In this document: positions 1,206 through 17,316 of the stretch, piece after piece | Position numbering within the stretch: position 1 is the first letter of the stretch | Layout of the letters: every line of letters starts with the position of its first letter | Virus record (IMG/VR): IMGVR_UViG_3300008261_001936 | Location: 1 to 27,475 of that record | Reading direction: 5' to 3' (one strand) | From: a virus | Length of the DNA: 27,475 bases | Made by a program: the position numbers and the translations under genes | Notes under the pieces: generated by a model | What the model was told of the DNA's origin: nothing | The model's input: the letters and a program-made list of their open reading frames with translations, nothing else | The model's database searches: none

Positions 1206-3875
1206 TTACTCAAAATCAAATAATTTGTTGAAGTTGTTATCACTTCGAGTTGAACTGATATCCCATTCTAGAACACCAATTAAATTTCCTAACTTTTCAT
1301 CAATGACTGTAGTTTCCATTTCGCCATCGTCAAACGGTAGGTCTTTAAACCATTGCGGTAATCGCAATTCGTCTACAGGATATGCCACTGAGGTATACCC
1401 CATTGGATTCTCCTTGAGTTTACATACAATAACTTTAGCACCATCAACAATCTGCGTTGAGTACTTGTCATCCATCATACGTTTCAGTGTATTCCAGTTA
1501 AGACTTGCTCGAACATGCCCGGGCATGTTGGTCTTACCGGCTTTCTTTTCTTTGTCTCGATATTGAGAAATGTTGTTTGCACGTTTTGGCGAGCCTTTCT
1601 CCCAACCCGGTCTAAGTTTAAACTCGGTTCTAAAGTCAGTAATGTAATTCAGTACTTGTTCTTTTTCAGCACCGTTCAATACCTGAGTCAACACTTCGCT
1701 TAAGAAATCTTGGATAACAACCGGGGTATCTGAACGCTTGAGGTCCAGCCCCATAGCTTTGATCTTGCCTGGCTTGCCTTCAATGTCTGCTCGTTTGCCT
1801 TCTTTGTCGTAGTAGAGAACAGCGTATCGTTTCTTGGTAATGAATAGTCCTTTGGAAGCAACAATCTCGCGACCTGCTTTAATGACCTCCCCTCGTGTTT
1901 TTGGACAGTGGAAGGCGTCTTGCATAAATTTGGGAAATGTTCCATTTACTTCTTCTCCTATAGTATCGTAAAGATCAACAACGTTTTCTCGACTCCAAGG
2001 AATTGACCCTTTGTCAATTTCTTTCTTTAAAGTTGTGTAAGCTGAAAAATAACACGAATCGGTATCACCATAGATAATTGCTTTACCTGTGTGATCGTTA
2101 GTTCCTGTAATAATTTCATTTACTTTGCCAGCCATATGACGAGCAATGGCTCGTCCAGTAAGTGTGGTTGATTGACCAATCCGGTTATCAAAGAAACGAC
2201 AGCCAGGATTAAGAATAGCACCATACAGACTATTAAGCAAAATCTTTTTAACAAGTTGACGCTTGTCCCAATATTCTTCTTCAATTTTATTTCCCGCCTT
2301 TATACATTCTTTTAATTTGGCCTGCATTTCTTTACGTTCAGCATACCAACGCTTTAACAGTCCAGGAATAATACCTTCCTTATCGTAGGTAAAGATAGTA
2401 CCGTTGGCACTAAGCATCCATGGCTGATTGCTTTCAAATATCAAATCATGCGCCTGTGCCGCAGATAGCGTATCGTTTCCGCCATCTTCCCAGTCGATAG
2501 TAATGTCACGGCCGACTTCTTTGTTCATAACAGAACTGTATTCGACACTACCGAACATGCCTTCCCACGCAGATGCAAAACTTTTACCTTTGCCTATTTC
2601 GGCAGCAATAAAGTCTTTGGTACCATCTTGACGTAATTGTCCAACAATAGTTTCTGGACCCATGTTCAATGCACGAATTGCTGAAGGATACAGACTGTTG
2701 ATGTCTAGTGAACCGATCCACTCGTGAATACCTTTTTTGGGATAAGCAACATAAGCACCAGCAGCTTGATTGCTTTCATTAGGATCACGTTGTACACGAT
2801 TAGGAACAACCATGCCTCTTCGATGACTTTCATTAATAATAGCCTGCTCAGTTACTGCAACAGCACCCATTGTGGTTTGAATTAACACCGTATTCTCGTG
2901 AGCAATAGTATTTGCAAGATCAATAAATTTTAATTTTTTATCTAGCTTATCTAGAAGCGCACAGTCTTGCCTATTATACTCGATAAATTTACGGAAGTCG
3001 TTGTTATATAACTGATCAAGTGTACCTTCGTAGACAGTCTTATTCTCGCCTATCTCCATCTCTCCAATGGCATCCAATCGGTATGTGTGCCTTTCCTCAT
3101 ATGTGTATTTGCGGTACAACTCGAGACTGTCCAGATGAACACGACCAATAAAATCATAAGTAATAGCGGCCTTTCCATATTTCTCATACTCTCTCTTCTT
3201 TGGGAATTGATTCCATAAACAAAATCTACGTGTGTCCTCTTTACTTAGGACTTTAGTAACACGGTTGACAGTATATGGAATATCAAAGCCCTCACTGTTC
3301 CAGCCTGATAATGCATCGGCATCTTGAATTAGATCTAAGAACGTGTCTAACATATCTGCTTCATTGTCAAACAGCATGGTGTTAGGAAATTCTGCTACCT
3401 GTTTAGTAGCTTCTTCCATACTTAGGGTCTTGGGAGGAATAGCTAAACAGATCATAGTTTGCATCCATTGTAGGTAAACAGCAATCGCAGTAATAGGCAT
3501 GAATGCATCTTCTGGTGATGCATAGCCACGTTCTGGATCAAAGTCTACCTCAATGTCGAAGAACGCTACATTTAGTTTTGGAGCATCTTGATTAAGATAG
3601 TTGTCTTCTAGACAACGATAAATTGGATTAATGTCGCTTTCAAACAGTTTCTTGCTTGAATGAATTGCAAGTTCTTTGCGATGCTCTTTGACGTTTTTAG
3701 AACTTACTCGTGAAAGAGGTTGTCCAAAAATGTTTGTGAATTTACCCTTGGCGTCTGGGTAATAAAAAATATGTCTAGCAGGATATTCTTTGTAATGTCG
3801 TTCGCCTTTATCATTGCGCTCAACAACATTGATGATATCCTGCTCTCTATTATAGAAAGCGTCTACATAACTCAA
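1206..3875 (-). CDS. 43: Family B DNA polymerase, replicative (gp43-like)
   Basis: Replicative polymerase with 3'-5' proofreading, 889 residues against 898 in T4. Exonuclease motifs: FDIE at 106-109 (D107, E109), GWNSEGFDIP at 191-200 (N193, D198), and YNRQD at 300-304 (D304). Polymerase motifs: A, SLDINSLYPS at 389-398 (D391); B, KKILLNSLYG at 543-552; C, YGDTDS at 602-607 (D604, D606); then a KKRY element in the thumb-proximal region. All catalytic acids of both sites are present, so the enzyme should be active. The C-terminus NFNKLFDFE looks like a clamp-binding peptide. The SD AGGAG precedes ATG 3875. It lies just upstream of gp45 in transcription order. No intein or frameshift is seen. 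Confidence 0.98.
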   Translation of the reverse strand: MSYVDAFYNREQDIINVVERNDKGERHYKEYPARHIFYYPDAKGKFTNIFGQPLSRVSSKNVKEHRKELAIHSSKKLFESDINPIYRCLEDNYLNQDAPKLNVAFFDIEVDFDPERGYASPEDAFMPITAIAVYLQWMQTMICLAIPPKTLSMEEATKQVAEFPNTMLFDNEADMLDTFLDLIQDADALSGWNSEGFDIPYTVNRVTKVLSKEDTRRFCLWNQFPKKREYEKYGKAAITYDFIGRVHLDSLELYRKYTYEERHTYRLDAIGEMEIGENKTVYEGTLDQLYNNDFRKFIEYNRQDCALLDKLDKKLKFIDLANTIAHENTVLIQTTMGAVAVTEQAIINESHRRGMVVPNRVQRDPNESNQAAGAYVAYPKKGIHEWIGSLDINSLYPSAIRALNMGPETIVGQLRQDGTKDFIAAEIGKGKSFASAWEGMFGSVEYSSVMNKEVGRDITIDWEDGGNDTLSAAQAHDLIFESNQPWMLSANGTIFTYDKEGIIPGLLKRWYAERKEMQAKLKECIKAGNKIEEEYWDKRQLVKKILLNSLYGAILNPGCRFFDNRIGQSTTLTGRAIARHMAGKVNEIITGTNDHTGKAIIYGDTDSCYFSAYTTLKKEIDKGSIPWSRENVVDLYDTIGEEVNGTFPKFMQDAFHCPKTRGEVIKAGREIVASKGLFITKKRYAVLYYDKEGKRADIEGKPGKIKAMGLDLKRSDTPVVIQDFLSEVLTQVLNGAEKEQVLNYITDFRTEFKLRPGWEKGSPKRANNISQYRDKEKKAGKTNMPGHVRASLNWNTLKRMMDDKYSTQIVDGAKVIVCKLKENPMGYTSVAYPVDELRLPQWFKDLPFDDGEMETTVIDEKLGNLIGVLEWDISSTRSDNNFNKLFDFE

Positions 3876-3952: not shown

Positions 3953-4246
3953 TTAATTAATTATCATTCTTATTAGGCCAAACATATCAATTGCGGTTAG
4001 CAAGATGTAGTTAGCCAACATGCCAAATGATTTCCTAGTATAAGCAGCCCAAGCATACATAGCACAACCAGCGATCCACACAGGGTAAAGAGCAAGTAAT
4101 GGAGGGTTGGGTACAGTGACGGCCATTGTAATGGAGCAGCCGATAGAGATCGCCCAAGCAAGAAGCTCAACAATAAAGCGAAAAGGATGAGTAGTATAGT
4201 CATCTTTGATCCAATCTACAGTAGGTTTAAAAAAATCAATAATCAT
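3953..4246 (-). CDS. Small three-helix membrane protein, conserved in T4-like phages
   Basis: A protein of 97 residues with three probable transmembrane helices, about 24-44, 49-68 and 75-95. A short amphipathic N-terminus (MIIDFFKPTVDWIKDD) probably lies on the cytoplasmic side. Pro-rich turns (VPNPPLLALYPVW) separate helices 1 and 2. ATG 4246 overlaps the stop of the dsbA-like gene by four bases (ATGA), so the two are co-translated, and gp43 follows 77 bases downstream. No transporter motif can be made out. I recall similar proteins beside replication genes of marine T4-like phages without known function. The gene and its membrane nature are well supported; the role is unknown. Confidence 0.85.
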   Translation of the reverse strand: MIIDFFKPTVDWIKDDYTTHPFRFIVELLAWAISIGCSITMAVTVPNPPLLALYPVWIAGCAMYAWAAYTRKSFGMLANYILLTAIDMFGLIRMIIN

Positions 4247-4503
4247 TCAGGTAGACGTTTAGTTACACCAAGAATCATTTCAATTTCGTCCCACTCTTCT
4301 TCGTGTGATTTCCAATTGTCTTTGTGTGCAATCTTAATTGCCTTATTAATAATGCTTGGTTTAATTTGCAGTTCTTCTGCTACTGCCTTAACAGTTTCTT
4401 TTAAACCTTCACTTAGATCTTCAATTTCACGCAATACATTACCGCCTTCATTGATAAGACGTTCTAGTTTTGCTTTTTCTTCCGGACCATACATTTTAGC
4501 CAT
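4243..4503 (-). CDS. dsbA: DsbA-like double-stranded DNA-binding protein (late transcription)
   Basis: In T4, DsbA is an 89-residue dsDNA-binding protein that binds near late promoters. This protein has 86 residues, is all helical and charged, and contains IAHKDNW at about 58-64, which matches the HKDN region of T4 DsbA as I remember it. The start is set at 4503 because AGGAG lies eight bases upstream; the longer frame to 4554 would run through the -10 box and terminator, so it is not used. It is the first gene after the promoter at 4526-4554 and overlaps the membrane-protein gene by four bases. The family assignment rests on length, position and the short motif, so it is probable but not certain. 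Confidence 0.7.
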   Translation of the reverse strand: MAKMYGPEEKAKLERLINEGGNVLREIEDLSEGLKETVKAVAEELQIKPSIINKAIKIAHKDNWKSHEEEWDEIEMILGVTKRLPE

Positions 4504-4525
4504 ATTAATATCTCCTATGTTAACT

Positions 4526-4554
4526 ATTATACAGTCATAAAAAAAGCCAGTCAA
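4526..4554 (-). promoter_or_regulatory. Strong sigma70-type promoter for dsbA-like/gp43 unit, merged with a terminator
   Basis: On the minus strand TTGACT (4549-4554), a spacer of exactly 17 bp, and TATAAT (4526-4531). The -35 lies in the loop and 3' stem arm of the terminator at 4538-4570, and the terminator T-tract forms part of the spacer. Predicted transcription start is about 4519-4520, giving a 16-17 base leader with AGGAG before the dsbA-like ATG. Early class is inferred from the host-type consensus. Confidence 0.85.
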
Positions 4555-4570
4555 CCTAATGACTGGCTTT
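4538..4570 (-). terminator. Intrinsic terminator of the late unit ending with the gene at 4588
   Basis: On the minus strand the 10-base arm AAAGCCAGTC (4561-4570) pairs with GACTGGCTTT (4543-4552) around an 8-base loop, followed by a run of seven T (4539-4545, partly in the stem). It lies 18 bases after the stop of the Lys-rich late gene. The arm is T/A-rich at its base in both directions, but only the minus strand has a clean T run. Confidence 0.9.
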
Positions 4571-4587
4571 GTTTACCAAACGGTAAA

Positions 4588-5559
4588 TTACTTTGTTTCT
4601 GCTAGAACGTCGTACATTTCAAATATGCCACCGTTGCGTTCATAAATTAAACCGGCGTATATTTCTGCTTTAGCTGACTCGTTAAACTTGGCAGCAGCAA
4701 CTCGTTGGGCCCATGTAAACAATGCTGTGTCTACTGGATCAATTTGTTGTTGACCACCGCTTTCTTGAACGAGCTTGATCATTTCTTTAAAAGTTAGTTT
4801 ACCTTCAACTGATTCTTTGACTGTTTTCTTTTTACCAAAGTACTTTGCTTGTGCAGCACTCATACCCTTCTTACCATCTTTTTTGTCGCCGCCTTTATTG
4901 CCGGCTGCACTTTTCATTGGCTCTTTTTTGTCACCGTCTTTGTCTAAATCTAAGAAATCTGGTTTAGCACCTTCATCTAATGTCTTTTTGCAATCAGCTA
5001 CCATTTGTTTTAATTCTTTTTGGTCGCAATCAGGATGCATTTTGCAAATTTCTGCTACAGTTTTTCCATCCTGACACATTTTTTTAATGTGTGACATTGG
5101 AGGACATTTCTTTTTGTCAGTAGCTTCTTTAACTTCTTGTTTCTTTTCGCCTTTCTTTTTAGCAATCATTGCTTTGAATTTGTCTTGAGCCGCTTTTTTA
5201 GCATCGCTAGCTTCTTCAACAGATTCTTTCTTGACTTTCTTCTTTGGCTTGTCGTCTTCGTCATCAGCTGCTTTTTCTTCACTGCCGCCATAAGCCTTGT
5301 TACTCTTATGAACAATACCAGTTTTAGTTTTTTCAACTGTGCCGCTAGCAATATTTTTCTTATCGCCCACTTTCATTTCTTCAGCAACTTTTTCATCAGC
5401 TTGTTTCTTAGCTTCAGCAAGAATTGTTGTTTGTCCAGCTAGAACACGCATTTGTGCGTTTTCGTCTAACTGTACAGATTTTGGTAGAACCGGAGCCCGT
5501 ACATGTTCTACGGGATCGTTTAATTGGTTAATTTTGCTAACTAGTGATTTGAAATCCAT
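4588..5559 (-). CDS. Lys/Glu-rich core or internal-head-type protein with several prohead-protease-like sites
   Basis: A highly charged, Lys/Ala/Glu-rich protein of 323 residues, like phage scaffold-core or internal head proteins. Parts: a helical N-terminus (1-60); a low-complexity KKK/EED region (60-148); a Cys-containing helical module (C152, C162, C172, C178, C190) resembling a small helix-turn-helix; a D-L-D-K-D-G-D stretch at 204-210 (calcium-loop-like); a KKGMSAAQAKYFGKKK linker; and a folded C-terminus (256-323). Tripeptides matching a T4 gp21-type cut (L/V-x-E before A or G) sit between parts: LAE|A at 47-50, VEE|A at 114-117, VKE|A at 143-146, LDE|G at 194-197. GATAAATA lies 33 bases upstream of ATG 5559 and the SD is AAGGA. 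The role as core or ejected protein is inferred; no enzyme motif is seen. Confidence 0.85.
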   Translation of the reverse strand: MDFKSLVSKINQLNDPVEHVRAPVLPKSVQLDENAQMRVLAGQTTILAEAKKQADEKVAEEMKVGDKKNIASGTVEKTKTGIVHKSNKAYGGSEEKAADDEDDKPKKKVKKESVEEASDAKKAAQDKFKAMIAKKKGEKKQEVKEATDKKKCPPMSHIKKMCQDGKTVAEICKMHPDCDQKELKQMVADCKKTLDEGAKPDFLDLDKDGDKKEPMKSAAGNKGGDKKDGKKGMSAAQAKYFGKKKTVKESVEGKLTFKEMIKLVQESGGQQQIDPVDTALFTWAQRVAAAKFNESAKAEIYAGLIYERNGGIFEMYDVLAETK

Positions 5560-5867: not shown

Positions 5868-6048
5868 TTATCTCGTGTATGCTGGCAATCGATGCTGTTT
5901 TGCCGTACTGCGCTTTAAGTAATCTTCGGGCCATATCGCGATCTTTAGCAGTAATTGTAGTATCAAGTATCTCGTAGTATCCGGGTTGTTTAACTTTAAT
6001 ACGGGCACTAAACAATTTATACGGGTGTGTTATATCGGAAAATTTCAT
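5863..6048 (-). CDS. Small conserved phage protein of 61 residues
   Basis: The protein has two probable beta strands (FSARIKVKQPGYYEILDTTI, about 13-32) followed by a helix (AKDRDMARRLLKAQYG, 34-49) and a short final strand. This compact beta-beta-alpha-beta pattern looks folded and is not low complexity. Its ATG overlaps the stop of the nucleotidase-GH19 gene by four bases (ATGA), so expression is coupled. I recall such short proteins with MAR-LLKAQYG-like helices in many uncultured T4-like phages, none with known function. The gene call is secure through overlap and sense of composition; the role is unknown. Confidence 0.8.
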   Translation of the reverse strand: MKFSDITHPYKLFSARIKVKQPGYYEILDTTITAKDRDMARRLLKAQYGKTASIASIHEIR

Positions 6049-7226
6049 CGCATTGCTACCTGAAATGCTTGTTGTTTTTCTTGGCGTTTATCTAGGTGTC
6101 TCATGCCAGGGTTGATAGTTTTAGTAACAGCTTTAGTATCTTTGAAGCTATCGACTTTATTAGCCACTCTAGTTTTCCAATACCACACAGCTACTTTGGC
6201 AGCAACTTCTGGTTTTTCAACAAGTTCGGGTTTAGCTTCTAACGGTAGACCTAATGCTGCGCCTGCTCTTTTGTAATTATCACGACCAGTTAACTGTATG
6301 TAACCTCGACCTTTATATTTTGCTCCGTCACCTATTTGTTTGTTTCCTAATGCTTTTGCTTTTTTAGGAGCATACTTAGGATCGTACTTGCGGAAATCTA
6401 AGCTACCGCCAATTTCTTTCATGTGTTTAAAGTCAAGAGTTTCATGGGCACATTGTGATAAAAACGATACAAGTTCGTTACCAGTAATACCTGCTTTTTC
6501 AGCTGCCTTTCTTAAGTACACTTCGTGCGGATTTCCTGTAACACTTTTTGCAACATCTTGTTTACTAACTTGTTGAATAACGCTGGGCTTTTGTGTAGTT
6601 GGTTGAGACTTGGCGTCGGCATTGCCTGCTCCGCCAAATGCCAATCCAGTAGCTAGTGCTCCAGCAGCAGCGATGTCTTTCCACCCTTCGTCAACATCTC
6701 CTTTACTTGCTGCCTGTAATGCTTTAAATACTTTACTTAAACTATCTTCATCTGCTTGATACTTGATGGCGATGCCGCCAGCATCAGCCCACTTTCGAAT
6801 GTTTACACCATAGTCGTCGATTAATACATTTGGCGTACCGTTGGAGTTAACTGCATATTTGTATTTCTCGTGTTCAAAGATGATCTGATCTGCTGGAACA
6901 TTAATATGCTTTGACAGCCATTCACGTTTGCCTTTGATACTTCCGGCCTTGTCAAAATTTAACGGACTGCTTAAAATATTATATCCGCCCGCATAATTAA
7001 CAACCATTTGTAATAATTTATTTGCTGTAGGAAATACCGGCAAACTTTTAAACAACTCGTAAGCATTAGAATTTTTAAAAAACTCCTCCCACTGTGCCTG
7101 AGTCATTTGATTGTAATGCTCTACATCGTTTACTGATCCTGCGTGGTTAAATAAATCCGCTAGAACACCGTCCATGTCAACATAGACTGTTGTTCCTTCT
7201 GGTAATTTTAACTCACTTGCTTTCAT
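6045..7226 (-). CDS. Two-domain protein: 5'-nucleotidase-like HAD domain and GH19 lysozyme/chitinase domain
   Basis: A 393-residue fusion. Residues 12-170 form a HAD-fold 5'(3')-deoxyribonucleotidase-like domain: VDMDGVLAD at 16-24 (D17 nucleophile, D19) and LIDDYG at 135-140. Residues 225-393 form a GH19 domain: QCAHET at 258-263 with likely catalytic E262, E271 nine residues on, and GRGYIQLTGRDNY at 306-318. Between them V178-D-E180|GW starts a link with a hydrophobic Ala/Gly run (186-200) ending NADA at 202-205. The VDE|G resembles a prohead-protease site, and what follows looks like a signal peptide (inference). The true endolysin is elsewhere (16690-17316), so this GH19 may act in the virion or during entry. 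The usual INGG of GH19 reads INPG here. It overlaps a 35-residue ORF upstream by 14 bases. Confidence 0.9.
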   Translation of the reverse strand: MKASELKLPEGTTVYVDMDGVLADLFNHAGSVNDVEHYNQMTQAQWEEFFKNSNAYELFKSLPVFPTANKLLQMVVNYAGGYNILSSPLNFDKAGSIKGKREWLSKHINVPADQIIFEHEKYKYAVNSNGTPNVLIDDYGVNIRKWADAGGIAIKYQADEDSLSKVFKALQAASKGDVDEGWKDIAAAGALATGLAFGGAGNADAKSQPTTQKPSVIQQVSKQDVAKSVTGNPHEVYLRKAAEKAGITGNELVSFLSQCAHETLDFKHMKEIGGSLDFRKYDPKYAPKKAKALGNKQIGDGAKYKGRGYIQLTGRDNYKRAGAALGLPLEAKPELVEKPEVAAKVAVWYWKTRVANKVDSFKDTKAVTKTINPGMRHLDKRQEKQQAFQVAMR

Positions 7227-13786: not shown

Positions 13787-14280
13787 TACTTCATTTTCCT
13801 TATTTTCTTCATAGCTAAGTTTAACTTCATTTGTGACACTTTGTCAACAAAACAAATGCCTAACAAGTGATCATACTCGTGTTGAAAGCATCTTGCAACT
13901 AGTCCATCCATCTCTGCTTCGATCGTATCGCCGCTACTGTTTTGATACTCTACTAGAATCTTTTTAGGACGTTTAATTTTTAACCATAGATCCGGATAAC
14001 TCAAACATCCTTCTTTTTCTAAAATTACATCTTCACTAACTTTTAATATTTTAGGATTAAACACAGCAAACGGAATAGGAAATCCTTGAATATTATTACT
14101 ACCAATAGTGAATACTTGTTTTGTAAGACCAATTTGATTTGCAGCCAATCCTATGCCGTGATTTGCAACCATAAATTCGCACATGTCTTTTTCAAGTCGA
14201 TCAGCATCTCCGTCAACTGCAAAATCCCAAGGAGTGCTTGGCACTACAAGAGACTGGTGAGGCCCTAATTTAAACTCCAT
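13786..14280 (-). CDS. def: Peptide deformylase
   Basis: Removes the formyl group from the starting Met of new proteins; a metalloenzyme in the cytoplasm. 164 residues with all three family motifs: GIGLAANQ at 42-49, EGCLS at 90-94 with metal ligand C92, and QHEYDH at 133-138 with metal ligands H134 and H138 and catalytic E135. The length is near bacterial enzymes, with a full C-terminal helix, unlike the shortened forms known from some cyanophages. It overlaps dnaJ by 11 bases upstream and clpA by one base downstream, so it is the middle gene of a tight proteostasis operon. Probably active. Confidence 0.97.
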   Translation of the reverse strand: MEFKLGPHQSLVVPSTPWDFAVDGDADRLEKDMCEFMVANHGIGLAANQIGLTKQVFTIGSNNIQGFPIPFAVFNPKILKVSEDVILEKEGCLSYPDLWLKIKRPKKILVEYQNSSGDTIEAEMDGLVARCFQHEYDHLLGICFVDKVSQMKLNLAMKKIRKMK

Positions 14281-15121
14281 CTCTAATTTCCTGTATTTTT
14301 TGTAATTGAGATTTAGATAAATTTTTCGGAATATCTACTTTAATACGAACTAATAAATTACCGCGTACTCTAGTTCGCATGTTTGGAATGCCTTCACCTT
14401 TGCAACTTAATACTGTATCTGGTTGTGTGCCGTGTGGAATGTTAATAGTTAAATTTTTCCCATCAACAGTTGAAATGGCTATAGCAGAACCCAACATTGC
14501 TTGCCATACATCTACTCTTTTTTCAGTAATGATGTCATCGTCTTCTCGATAGAATTCCGGATGAGCTTTAACATACACATTGACAATTAAATCGCCTGCT
14601 GGAACATCACGCATACTTTGATCGCCTATTCCCTGATATCTAATTTGCTGACCATGTTGCACACCAGGTGGTATAGAAATATTAACAATCTTTGATTGTC
14701 CGCCTGGGACACTTAGTTCAGCATTTAATTCTTTTCCAGCAATAACATCGTTCAACGTTAATTCAACATTAACATTTAATGTGCGATTTTTGCGCATCTG
14801 ATTCCTAAAACCAAATCCAAAGGCTTGTCCAAACAGGTCATCCATTCCAGGAGCACCACCAAAGTGGAATTCAAATGGATTTCCGCCACCTTGATGATAA
14901 AACCCGCCACCCTGTTGTTGACGAGTTGGATCCATGCCAGAATCAATCATTTGTTTCTTTTGAGGATCGCACAAAAATTCATATGCCTGACTAATTTCTT
15001 TAAATTTCTTTTCATCACCCCCACGGTCGGGATGATGTTTCATAGCCATGCTACGATATGCTTTTTTAATATCGGCGTCTGTTGCGCCACGTTGTAAACC
15101 AAGAGTTGAGTAATAATCCAT
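14270..15121 (-). CDS. dnaJ: DnaJ/CbpA-type J-domain co-chaperone
   Basis: Stimulates DnaK ATPase and delivers clients. 283 residues. J domain at 1-65 with the HPD motif at 30-32 (KHHPDRGG). Gly/Phe-rich linker at about 72-107. C-terminal substrate-binding domains I and II at about 110-283 (RTLNVNVELTLNDVIAGKEL and SIPPGVQHGQQIRYQGIGDQ). The four CxxCxGxG zinc repeats of DnaJ proper are absent, so it is the type B (CbpA-like) form. The J domain must begin at MDYYSTLGL, fixing the start at 15121, only nine bases from the -10 box; the predicted leader is three or four bases and no SD is possible on that transcript. First gene of the dnaJ-def-clpA unit. Confidence 0.95.
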   Translation of the reverse strand: MDYYSTLGLQRGATDADIKKAYRSMAMKHHPDRGGDEKKFKEISQAYEFLCDPQKKQMIDSGMDPTRQQQGGGFYHQGGGNPFEFHFGGAPGMDDLFGQAFGFGFRNQMRKNRTLNVNVELTLNDVIAGKELNAELSVPGGQSKIVNISIPPGVQHGQQIRYQGIGDQSMRDVPAGDLIVNVYVKAHPEFYREDDDIITEKRVDVWQAMLGSAIAISTVDGKNLTINIPHGTQPDTVLSCKGEGIPNMRTRVRGNLLVRIKVDIPKNLSKSQLQKIQEIRDGV

Positions 15122-15130
15122 AGTCTTTAT

Positions 15131-15159
15131 ATTATACGATAAAAAAAGGACTGTGTCAA
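15131..15159 (-). promoter_or_regulatory. Perfect-consensus sigma70 promoter for dnaJ-def-clpA, merged with a terminator
   Basis: On the minus strand TTGACA (15154-15159), exactly 17 bp, TATAAT (15131-15136): both boxes match consensus fully. The -35 forms most of the loop of the terminator at 15140-15170, and the T-tract lies in the spacer. Predicted start at 15124-15125, three or four bases before the dnaJ ATG. Confidence 0.92.
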
Positions 15160-15170
15160 GCAGTCCTTTT
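15140..15170 (-). terminator. Intrinsic terminator of the lysis unit
   Basis: On the minus strand the arm AAAAGGACTG (15161-15170) pairs with CAGTCCTTTT (15144-15153) around the 7-base loop CTTGACA, and seven T follow from the stem into 15141. It lies 25 bases after the stop of the secreted-peptide gene, closing the late unit that starts at 18593. Confidence 0.92.
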
Positions 15171-16689: not shown

Positions 16690-17316
16690 TCAAACCCCTA
16701 GTACGTGCAATGCGTGTTCGTAATGCTTGATTCGATCTTCTAGGCCAATAGTGCCACCGTTAATGCGTTTTGTTAATGTGAGGATGTCGCCCTTGTCTGC
16801 CCATTGATTTAGATTATTTGTTTCCCAAAACCAACAAGCTGATTGTAAGGCACCTTCAAATGTTGCTAGGTATTCTGGAACTTCTTCGACAGTCATTTCA
16901 AGGCTTTCGGCAAATGCTGTGTAGTTTTGCTTGCCGGTAAGTTGTATAAGGCCTCTACCGCAGTAGCGGAATCCGTCACCACTTGCTTCATCGCCATTGC
17001 CCATTCGATTGCCATAAACTCTGTTGGCAATTTTTTCACCTTGCTTTTCGTATTGTTTTGCAATTCCTAGATCTGGAAAATACTTTGGAAATACTTTTAC
17101 AAGACTTTCTGCACGATAGTTTAAATTTTCTTTTAATGCAGTGAACCCTGCACTCTCGTGAGCGCACTGAGCAATAAACGCTGCTACACGCTGTGGAGTA
17201 TTAATTTCATATTCTGGAAGTATATTACTACAAGCATCATACCATTGATCCACATAGGGATTCTTTGGAATCATTTCTTGTAATTGTTCTTTTGTAAATT
17301 CAAATGTAAAGCTCAT
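16690..17316 (-). CDS. Endolysin, GH19 (chitinase-like muramidase) family
   Basis: 208 residues, a single GH19 domain. QCAHESAGF at 50-58 carries the likely acid E54, with E63 nine residues on (LKENLNY) as second catalytic Glu. Further motifs: GRGLIQLTGKQNY at 119-131 and RINGG at about 184-188. No signal peptide or membrane helix, so release depends on the holin. ATG 17316 shares one base with the stop of the previous gene. It stands at the head of a full lysis cassette: endolysin, spanins, membrane peptide, holin. A second GH19 domain in the window (6045-7226) differs clearly in sequence and is fused, so the two probably have different jobs. Confidence 0.93.
   Translation of the reverse strand: MSFTFEFTKEQLQEMIPKNPYVDQWYDACSNILPEYEINTPQRVAAFIAQCAHESAGFTALKENLNYRAESLVKVFPKYFPDLGIAKQYEKQGEKIANRVYGNRMGNGDEASGDGFRYCGRGLIQLTGKQNYTAFAESLEMTVEEVPEYLATFEGALQSACWFWETNNLNQWADKGDILTLTKRINGGTIGLEDRIKHYEHALHVLGV

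Follow-up and report, generated by a model that had tools for sequence, protein, structure and literature searches.

A predicted intrinsic terminator nested with a near-consensus sigma70-type promoter between head-to-tail units of a freshwater phage

In Escherichia coli, the ampC promoter overlaps the end of the frd operon, i.e., the promoter of one unit and the terminator of the previous unit share DNA; there the start site comes before the terminator, which serves as an attenuator. In T4-type phages, the PeSL (promoter early stem-loop) cassettes are described as composite promoter-terminator motifs (doi 10.1093/gbe/evq006, Arbiol 2010; doi 10.1093/gbe/evu129, Comeau 2014; both as cited in PMC4503421). 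Other studies report that RNA polymerase (RNAP) need not leave the DNA upon intrinsic termination and can start anew from promoters close by (PMC6978380), and propose gene coupling from promoters that adjoin terminators (PMC6978322). No direct precedent for phage promoters overlapping terminators was found in the literature searched, in which the PeSL papers are represented by their citation in PMC4503421.

The stretch of DNA analyzed here (the window) is the whole of a 27,475-bp IMG/VR virus contig from a freshwater phage. Judging from its sequence, it very probably carries, before dsbA and again before dnaJ, a single bifunctional boundary between head-to-tail units, in which the intrinsic terminator of the upstream unit is nested with a near-consensus sigma70-type promoter. 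As described for the PeSL cassettes, a stem-loop that should act as terminator and a strong early promoter of the sigma70-like kind would together form one unit between head-to-tail phage genes.

Anatomy and genetic setting of the two elements

The minus strand is the RNA-sense strand of the first copy, and on this strand the sequence between the gene for a 323-aa Lys-rich protein and dsbA reads AAAGCCAGTCATTAGGTTGACTGGCTTTTTTTATGACTGTATAAT. The features of this copy and its neighboring genes are the following.

4588..5559 (-): upstream gene, Lys-rich protein of 323 aa; its stop codon is shortly upstream of the hairpin, which should end its transcript
4543..4570 (-): predicted terminator hairpin, AAAGCCAGTCA-TTAGGT-TGACTGGCTTT, 11-bp stem, 6-nt loop, -17.4 kcal/mol, z -6.3
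4549..4554 (-): -35 hexamer TTGACT, made up of the final loop base and the beginning of the hairpin 3' arm
4539..4545 (-): T7 tract within the promoter spacer, read from the sequence; its first T bases also pair with the A-run
4526..4531 (-): -10 hexamer TATAAT, 17 bp from the -35
4519..4521 (-): predicted transcription start, placed by its distance from the -10
4243..4503 (-): dsbA (PF11126 Phage_DsbA; AGGAG and ATG), first gene of the presumed downstream unit
3953..4246 (-): 97-aa ORF, presumed downstream unit
1206..3875 (-): gene for a gp43-like family B DNA polymerase (Pfam DNA_pol_B), presumed downstream unit

Read in RNA sense, AAAGCCAGTCA-TTAGGT-TGACTGGCTTT is followed by TTTTATGACTG and then by TATAAT, which agrees with the initial annotation of 4526-4570, where the -35 had been placed in the hairpin loop and 3' arm, the T-tract in a 17-bp spacer, and TATAAT after it. 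A stable, G+C-containing hairpin stands directly before a T run (11-bp stem, T7), as in intrinsic terminators, and the hairpin RNA has a folding energy of -17.4 kcal/mol, compared with -4.5 on average for shuffles (z = -6.3). The promoter is near-consensus, with 11/12 matches and a 17-bp spacer, and the corresponding match in the second copy is 12/12, again with a spacer of 17, so that both copies show the TTGACA/TATAAT-like hexamers 16-18 bp apart that define sigma70-type promoters, although hexamer strength and terminator efficiency were judged by E. coli rules, which may not be those of the host. A small palindrome, TTTACCGTTTGGTAAA (window 4573-4588, minus strand), separates the upstream stop codon from the hairpin, and TTTGGTAAAC, immediately before the hairpin, is found again in many relatives.

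The second copy, at 15170-15131 on the minus strand, precedes dnaJ, and the sequence of its stem is unrelated to that of the first.

15144..15170 (-): hairpin, 10-bp stem, 7-nt loop holding TTGACA, -12.0 kcal/mol, z -5.0
15154..15159 (-): -35 hexamer TTGACA, wholly in the loop, 12/12 consensus, 17-bp spacer
15131..15136 (-): -10 hexamer TATAAT
14270..15121 (-): dnaJ-like gene (Pfam DnaJ and DnaJ_C), presumably driven by the second copy

Genes for peptide deformylase and a Clp ATPase come after the dnaJ-like gene. For the first copy, the Pfam matches to Phage_DsbA and DNA_pol_B speak for the proposal that the downstream unit probably consists of dsbA/gp43 genes. A family search with the 97-aa ORF returned no match, and the 323-aa Lys-rich protein matched no family except, weakly, one whose function is not known. 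This upstream gene had been called late, a label that was dropped because the T4 late promoter TATAAATA occurs 0 times in the window against 2.85 expected. Elsewhere in the window, the ORF at 6045-7226 (-) appears, by eye, to join an N-terminal nucleotidase-like stretch to a C-terminal lysozyme/chitinase-like stretch, the latter resembling the ORF at 16690-17316.

Conservation among relatives and spread among phages

Loci of relatives (n = 224) were obtained from DNA polymerase, DnaJ and DsbA scans of IMG/VR. The merged element was present in 82 of the 90 distinct dsbA upstream regions, although these relatives share ancestry and their counts are therefore not independent events. The spacer was 17 in 84 of 87 distinct strong merged elements. 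As would be expected of a terminator just downstream of a co-directional gene, the gene upstream of the element was co-directional in 83/83 loci, and the distance from stop codon to hairpin start was 20-27 nt in 81 of them. This gene was a homologue of the window's Lys-rich gene in 81/83 loci and a different one in the other two; overall, a few changes of neighboring gene at the element were seen among the relatives, and three loci (L050, L062, L067) have an extra gene between the element and dsbA. The element was absent from its usual place in 8 of the 90 regions; L168 and L222 keep the promoter upstream of dsbA without a nested hairpin, whereas in L062 and L067 the element is found further upstream, behind the inserted gene. 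Since some of these exceptions keep the promoter alone or a displaced element, nesting is not obligatory.

Two further observations were made on the relatives. In L065, what may be a degenerate second copy, AAAAGCCATTGACCATATAAT, stands in the dsbA upstream region (about 1340-1400), directly upstream of an intact merged element, and is perhaps a relic of duplication. Four records (G001, G002, G007, G008; L255-L286 and L293-L312) have dozens of near-consensus promoters in their early regions, which share TTGG before TTGACA and a AYACAYAYACACA leader and have no nested hairpins; in some of them a terminator T-tract adjoins the -35.

Beyond the dsbA loci, IMG/VR was scanned with the pattern TTGAC-CTTTTT-TATAAT at loose spacing, and only candidates with spacers of 16-18 were kept. 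Of the 95 candidates among the matches listed, 45 have 6 bp or more of stem running up to the T-tract, an underestimate because the hairpin finder missed a family with two-part hairpins; permutation gave a mean of 4.0 and a maximum of 8. In bacterial and archaeal genomes, the same pattern yielded 6/92 among the matches listed (Fisher p = 1e-10 against the 45/95 of IMG/VR). At least 33 different sequences form the 3' arm among the IMG/VR matches listed; T4-like cyanophage relatives contribute many of them, and others come from the window's own clade and from unrelated contigs. The family with two-part hairpins is a further merged family, of the form gaggggc-aactggcaaaatccag-TTGACGCCCCTCTTTTTT-TATAAT (L317, L348, L356, L362, L363, L394, L400, L420, L429).

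Among public phages, a similarity search of the element DNA against the phage collection gave weak, short matches only, and the strict pattern had no match in RB49, T4, Syn9, 121Q, Phosso and Atu_ph07. Full scans followed for RB49, T4, Syn9 and 121Q, with Phosso and Atu_ph07 covered by the strict pattern alone. The whole-genome scan of 121Q returned 12 merged elements against 1.0 under random placement; there were 3 against 0.23 in KVP40 and 3 against 0.15 in the first 140 kb of nt-1, and the genome scans of S-PM2 and P-SSM2 also exceeded random placement, while those of T4 and Syn9 revealed no merged element. The -35 takes three positions: loop plus 3' arm at dsbA, the loop at dnaJ and in cyanophages, and 5' arm plus loop in 121Q, KVP40 and nt-1. 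In coliphage 121Q (L624-L641), at least 11 of the merged elements are similar, with the form AAGGGTTGACTTCGGTCAGCCCTT-TTTGCTATAAT, and make up a repeated family.

Stem pairing, mechanism and alternative readings

In the dnaJ stem, 6 of 9 pairs were changed on both sides among 16 distinct sequences, and its covariation score was 0.339 as opposed to 0.169 in shuffles, none of which (0/500) reached 0.339; when the stem was slid, the score did not exceed 0.156. In the dsbA family (63 distinct sequences), pair 4 of the stem was A-T in 44, G-C in 19 and mismatched in 0, and the sixth base of the -35 was T in 44, C in 19 and A in 0/63. Related genomes, in contrast, have A as the sixth base in 89/111 of their unmerged near-consensus promoters, so that in the dsbA family pairing takes precedence over the -35 consensus; the sequences compared share ancestry, and the counts are not independent. 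The rest of the hexamer, TTGAC, is constant while the stems change by compensatory pairs. It was also considered that the T-tract might be a normal promoter feature of these phages; this was rejected, as the spacers of 109/119 near-consensus promoters of these genomes are free of T5 runs.

The two signals, the fixed register between them, the conservation, the compensatory stem changes and the constant position after the upstream stop were read directly from the DNA, and together with the recurrence in other phages on unrelated stems they strongly uphold the core of the initial annotation, i.e., a terminator and a sigma70-type promoter that share about 45 bp. By the rules of intrinsic termination, RNAP arriving from the upstream gene would pause in the T-tract and the RNA would be released near 4540; by those of sigma70 promoters, host RNAP would start near 4520. 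Geometrically, a paused elongation complex and a promoter-bound holoenzyme should not be able to share the approximately 45 bp, and because RNAP at either site would cover most of the element, termination and initiation are expected to exclude each other while RNAP is bound. Mutual interference or polymerase recycling at the element is plausible. The likely benefit of the nesting is that it shields a strong early-type promoter from readthrough in little space; compaction and insulation are enough to account for the element, and it is possible, though speculative, that the promoter reuses RNAP that has just terminated.

A stronger version of this last idea is that nesting was selected for coupling. 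RNAP freed after the upstream transcript would sit over the -35 and -10 and reinitiate with sigma at once, and upstream transcription would feed, or when heavy occlude, the promoters of the dsbA-polymerase and dnaJ-clp genes, an arrangement that would have evolved repeatedly, with three -35 geometries. We regard such selection as unlikely.

According to another reading, the inverted repeat is a DNA operator, a palindrome over the -35 to which a regulatory protein of phage or host would bind to control the promoter, with the T-tract being incidental. The dyad does span the -35, a classic repressor position, and the dsbA arms, GCC[A/G]G, are highly conserved. However, the arms of the two copies are unrelated although one genome carries both, the arms drift by compensatory pairs, and the distance between them shifts by 1-2 bp (span 21, 22 or 23); moreover, every stem is followed by a T-tract, which most of the other promoters in these genomes lack, and the placement 20-27 nt past the stop codon suits a terminator. 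An operator is, on this evidence, very improbable.

It could also be argued that the promoter alone works and that the hairpin is a relic or causes negligible termination, since promoter-bound RNAP would block oncoming transcription before the hairpin forms. Bound holoenzyme would reach from about -55 to +20 and thereby lie over the hairpin DNA, and the T-tracts are short or interrupted in several of the public phages with merged elements (KVP40). Nonetheless, the hairpins fold far better than shuffles, and the compensatory stem changes, made at a cost to position 6 of the -35, indicate that pairing is selected, which makes a functionless hairpin very improbable. Lastly, coincidental adjacency in a compact, AT-rich genome, although the genomes are gene-dense with many terminators and promoters, was rejected as having next to no chance of being correct, since 400 dinucleotide shuffles of the window produced 1 merged element in total against 2 in the real window, random relative shifts of promoters and terminators gave 0.02 expected against the 2 observed, and the element is conserved in most upstream regions and built on many distinct 3' arms.

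With the nested boundary as the preferred reading, phages would time and again combine, within about 45 bp, the signal that stops one unit with the signal that starts the next, and the hairpin overrides the -35 consensus at one base. Annotation programs that seek promoters and terminators separately will misjudge or miss such elements, which offer natural tests of whether terminator-released RNAP is reused at a co-located promoter and may serve as compact parts for gene stacks.

Comparison with known systems

In RB49, a PeSL phage, 13-32 nt separate the hairpin with its T-tract from the -35 downstream of it, and the two do not overlap, whereas in the window the hairpin contains the -35 and the spacer contains the T-tract. 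RB49 accordingly has 8 abutting and 0 overlapping elements, as opposed to 2 overlapping and 0 abutting in the window, neither of which shows the RB49-type order of a terminator abutting the -35. Furthermore, the PeSL cassettes are described as repeated in variable regions, with many similar copies acting as exchange points in hyperplastic regions, while the window has just two copies, with unrelated stems, one per locus and at core genes.

The merged elements of coliphage 121Q and the Vibrio phages KVP40 and nt-1 are similar, as the hairpin, T-tract and -10 likewise share the promoter spacer. They differ in that the 5' arm and loop hold the -35 (aaagggTTGACTacggTCAACCCTTTcttgTATTAT), which brings the whole 3' arm into the spacer, and in that 121Q has many similar copies. 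Both nt-1 and KVP40 are reportedly phages of the 2014 PeSL paper, and because they carry nested elements, nesting may already be implicit in that work.

In ampC/frd, the hairpin is downstream of the start site, whereas in the window it is upstream. As in RNAP recycling, an RNAP left on the DNA could start at a nearby promoter, but recycling was reportedly shown in vitro with separated promoters (PMC6978380, PMC6978322), and the window would offer a natural nested element as the extreme case. Overall, the nested element is best read as a variant of the PeSL cassettes that differs in its geometry, its tie to core genes and its non-repeated copies.
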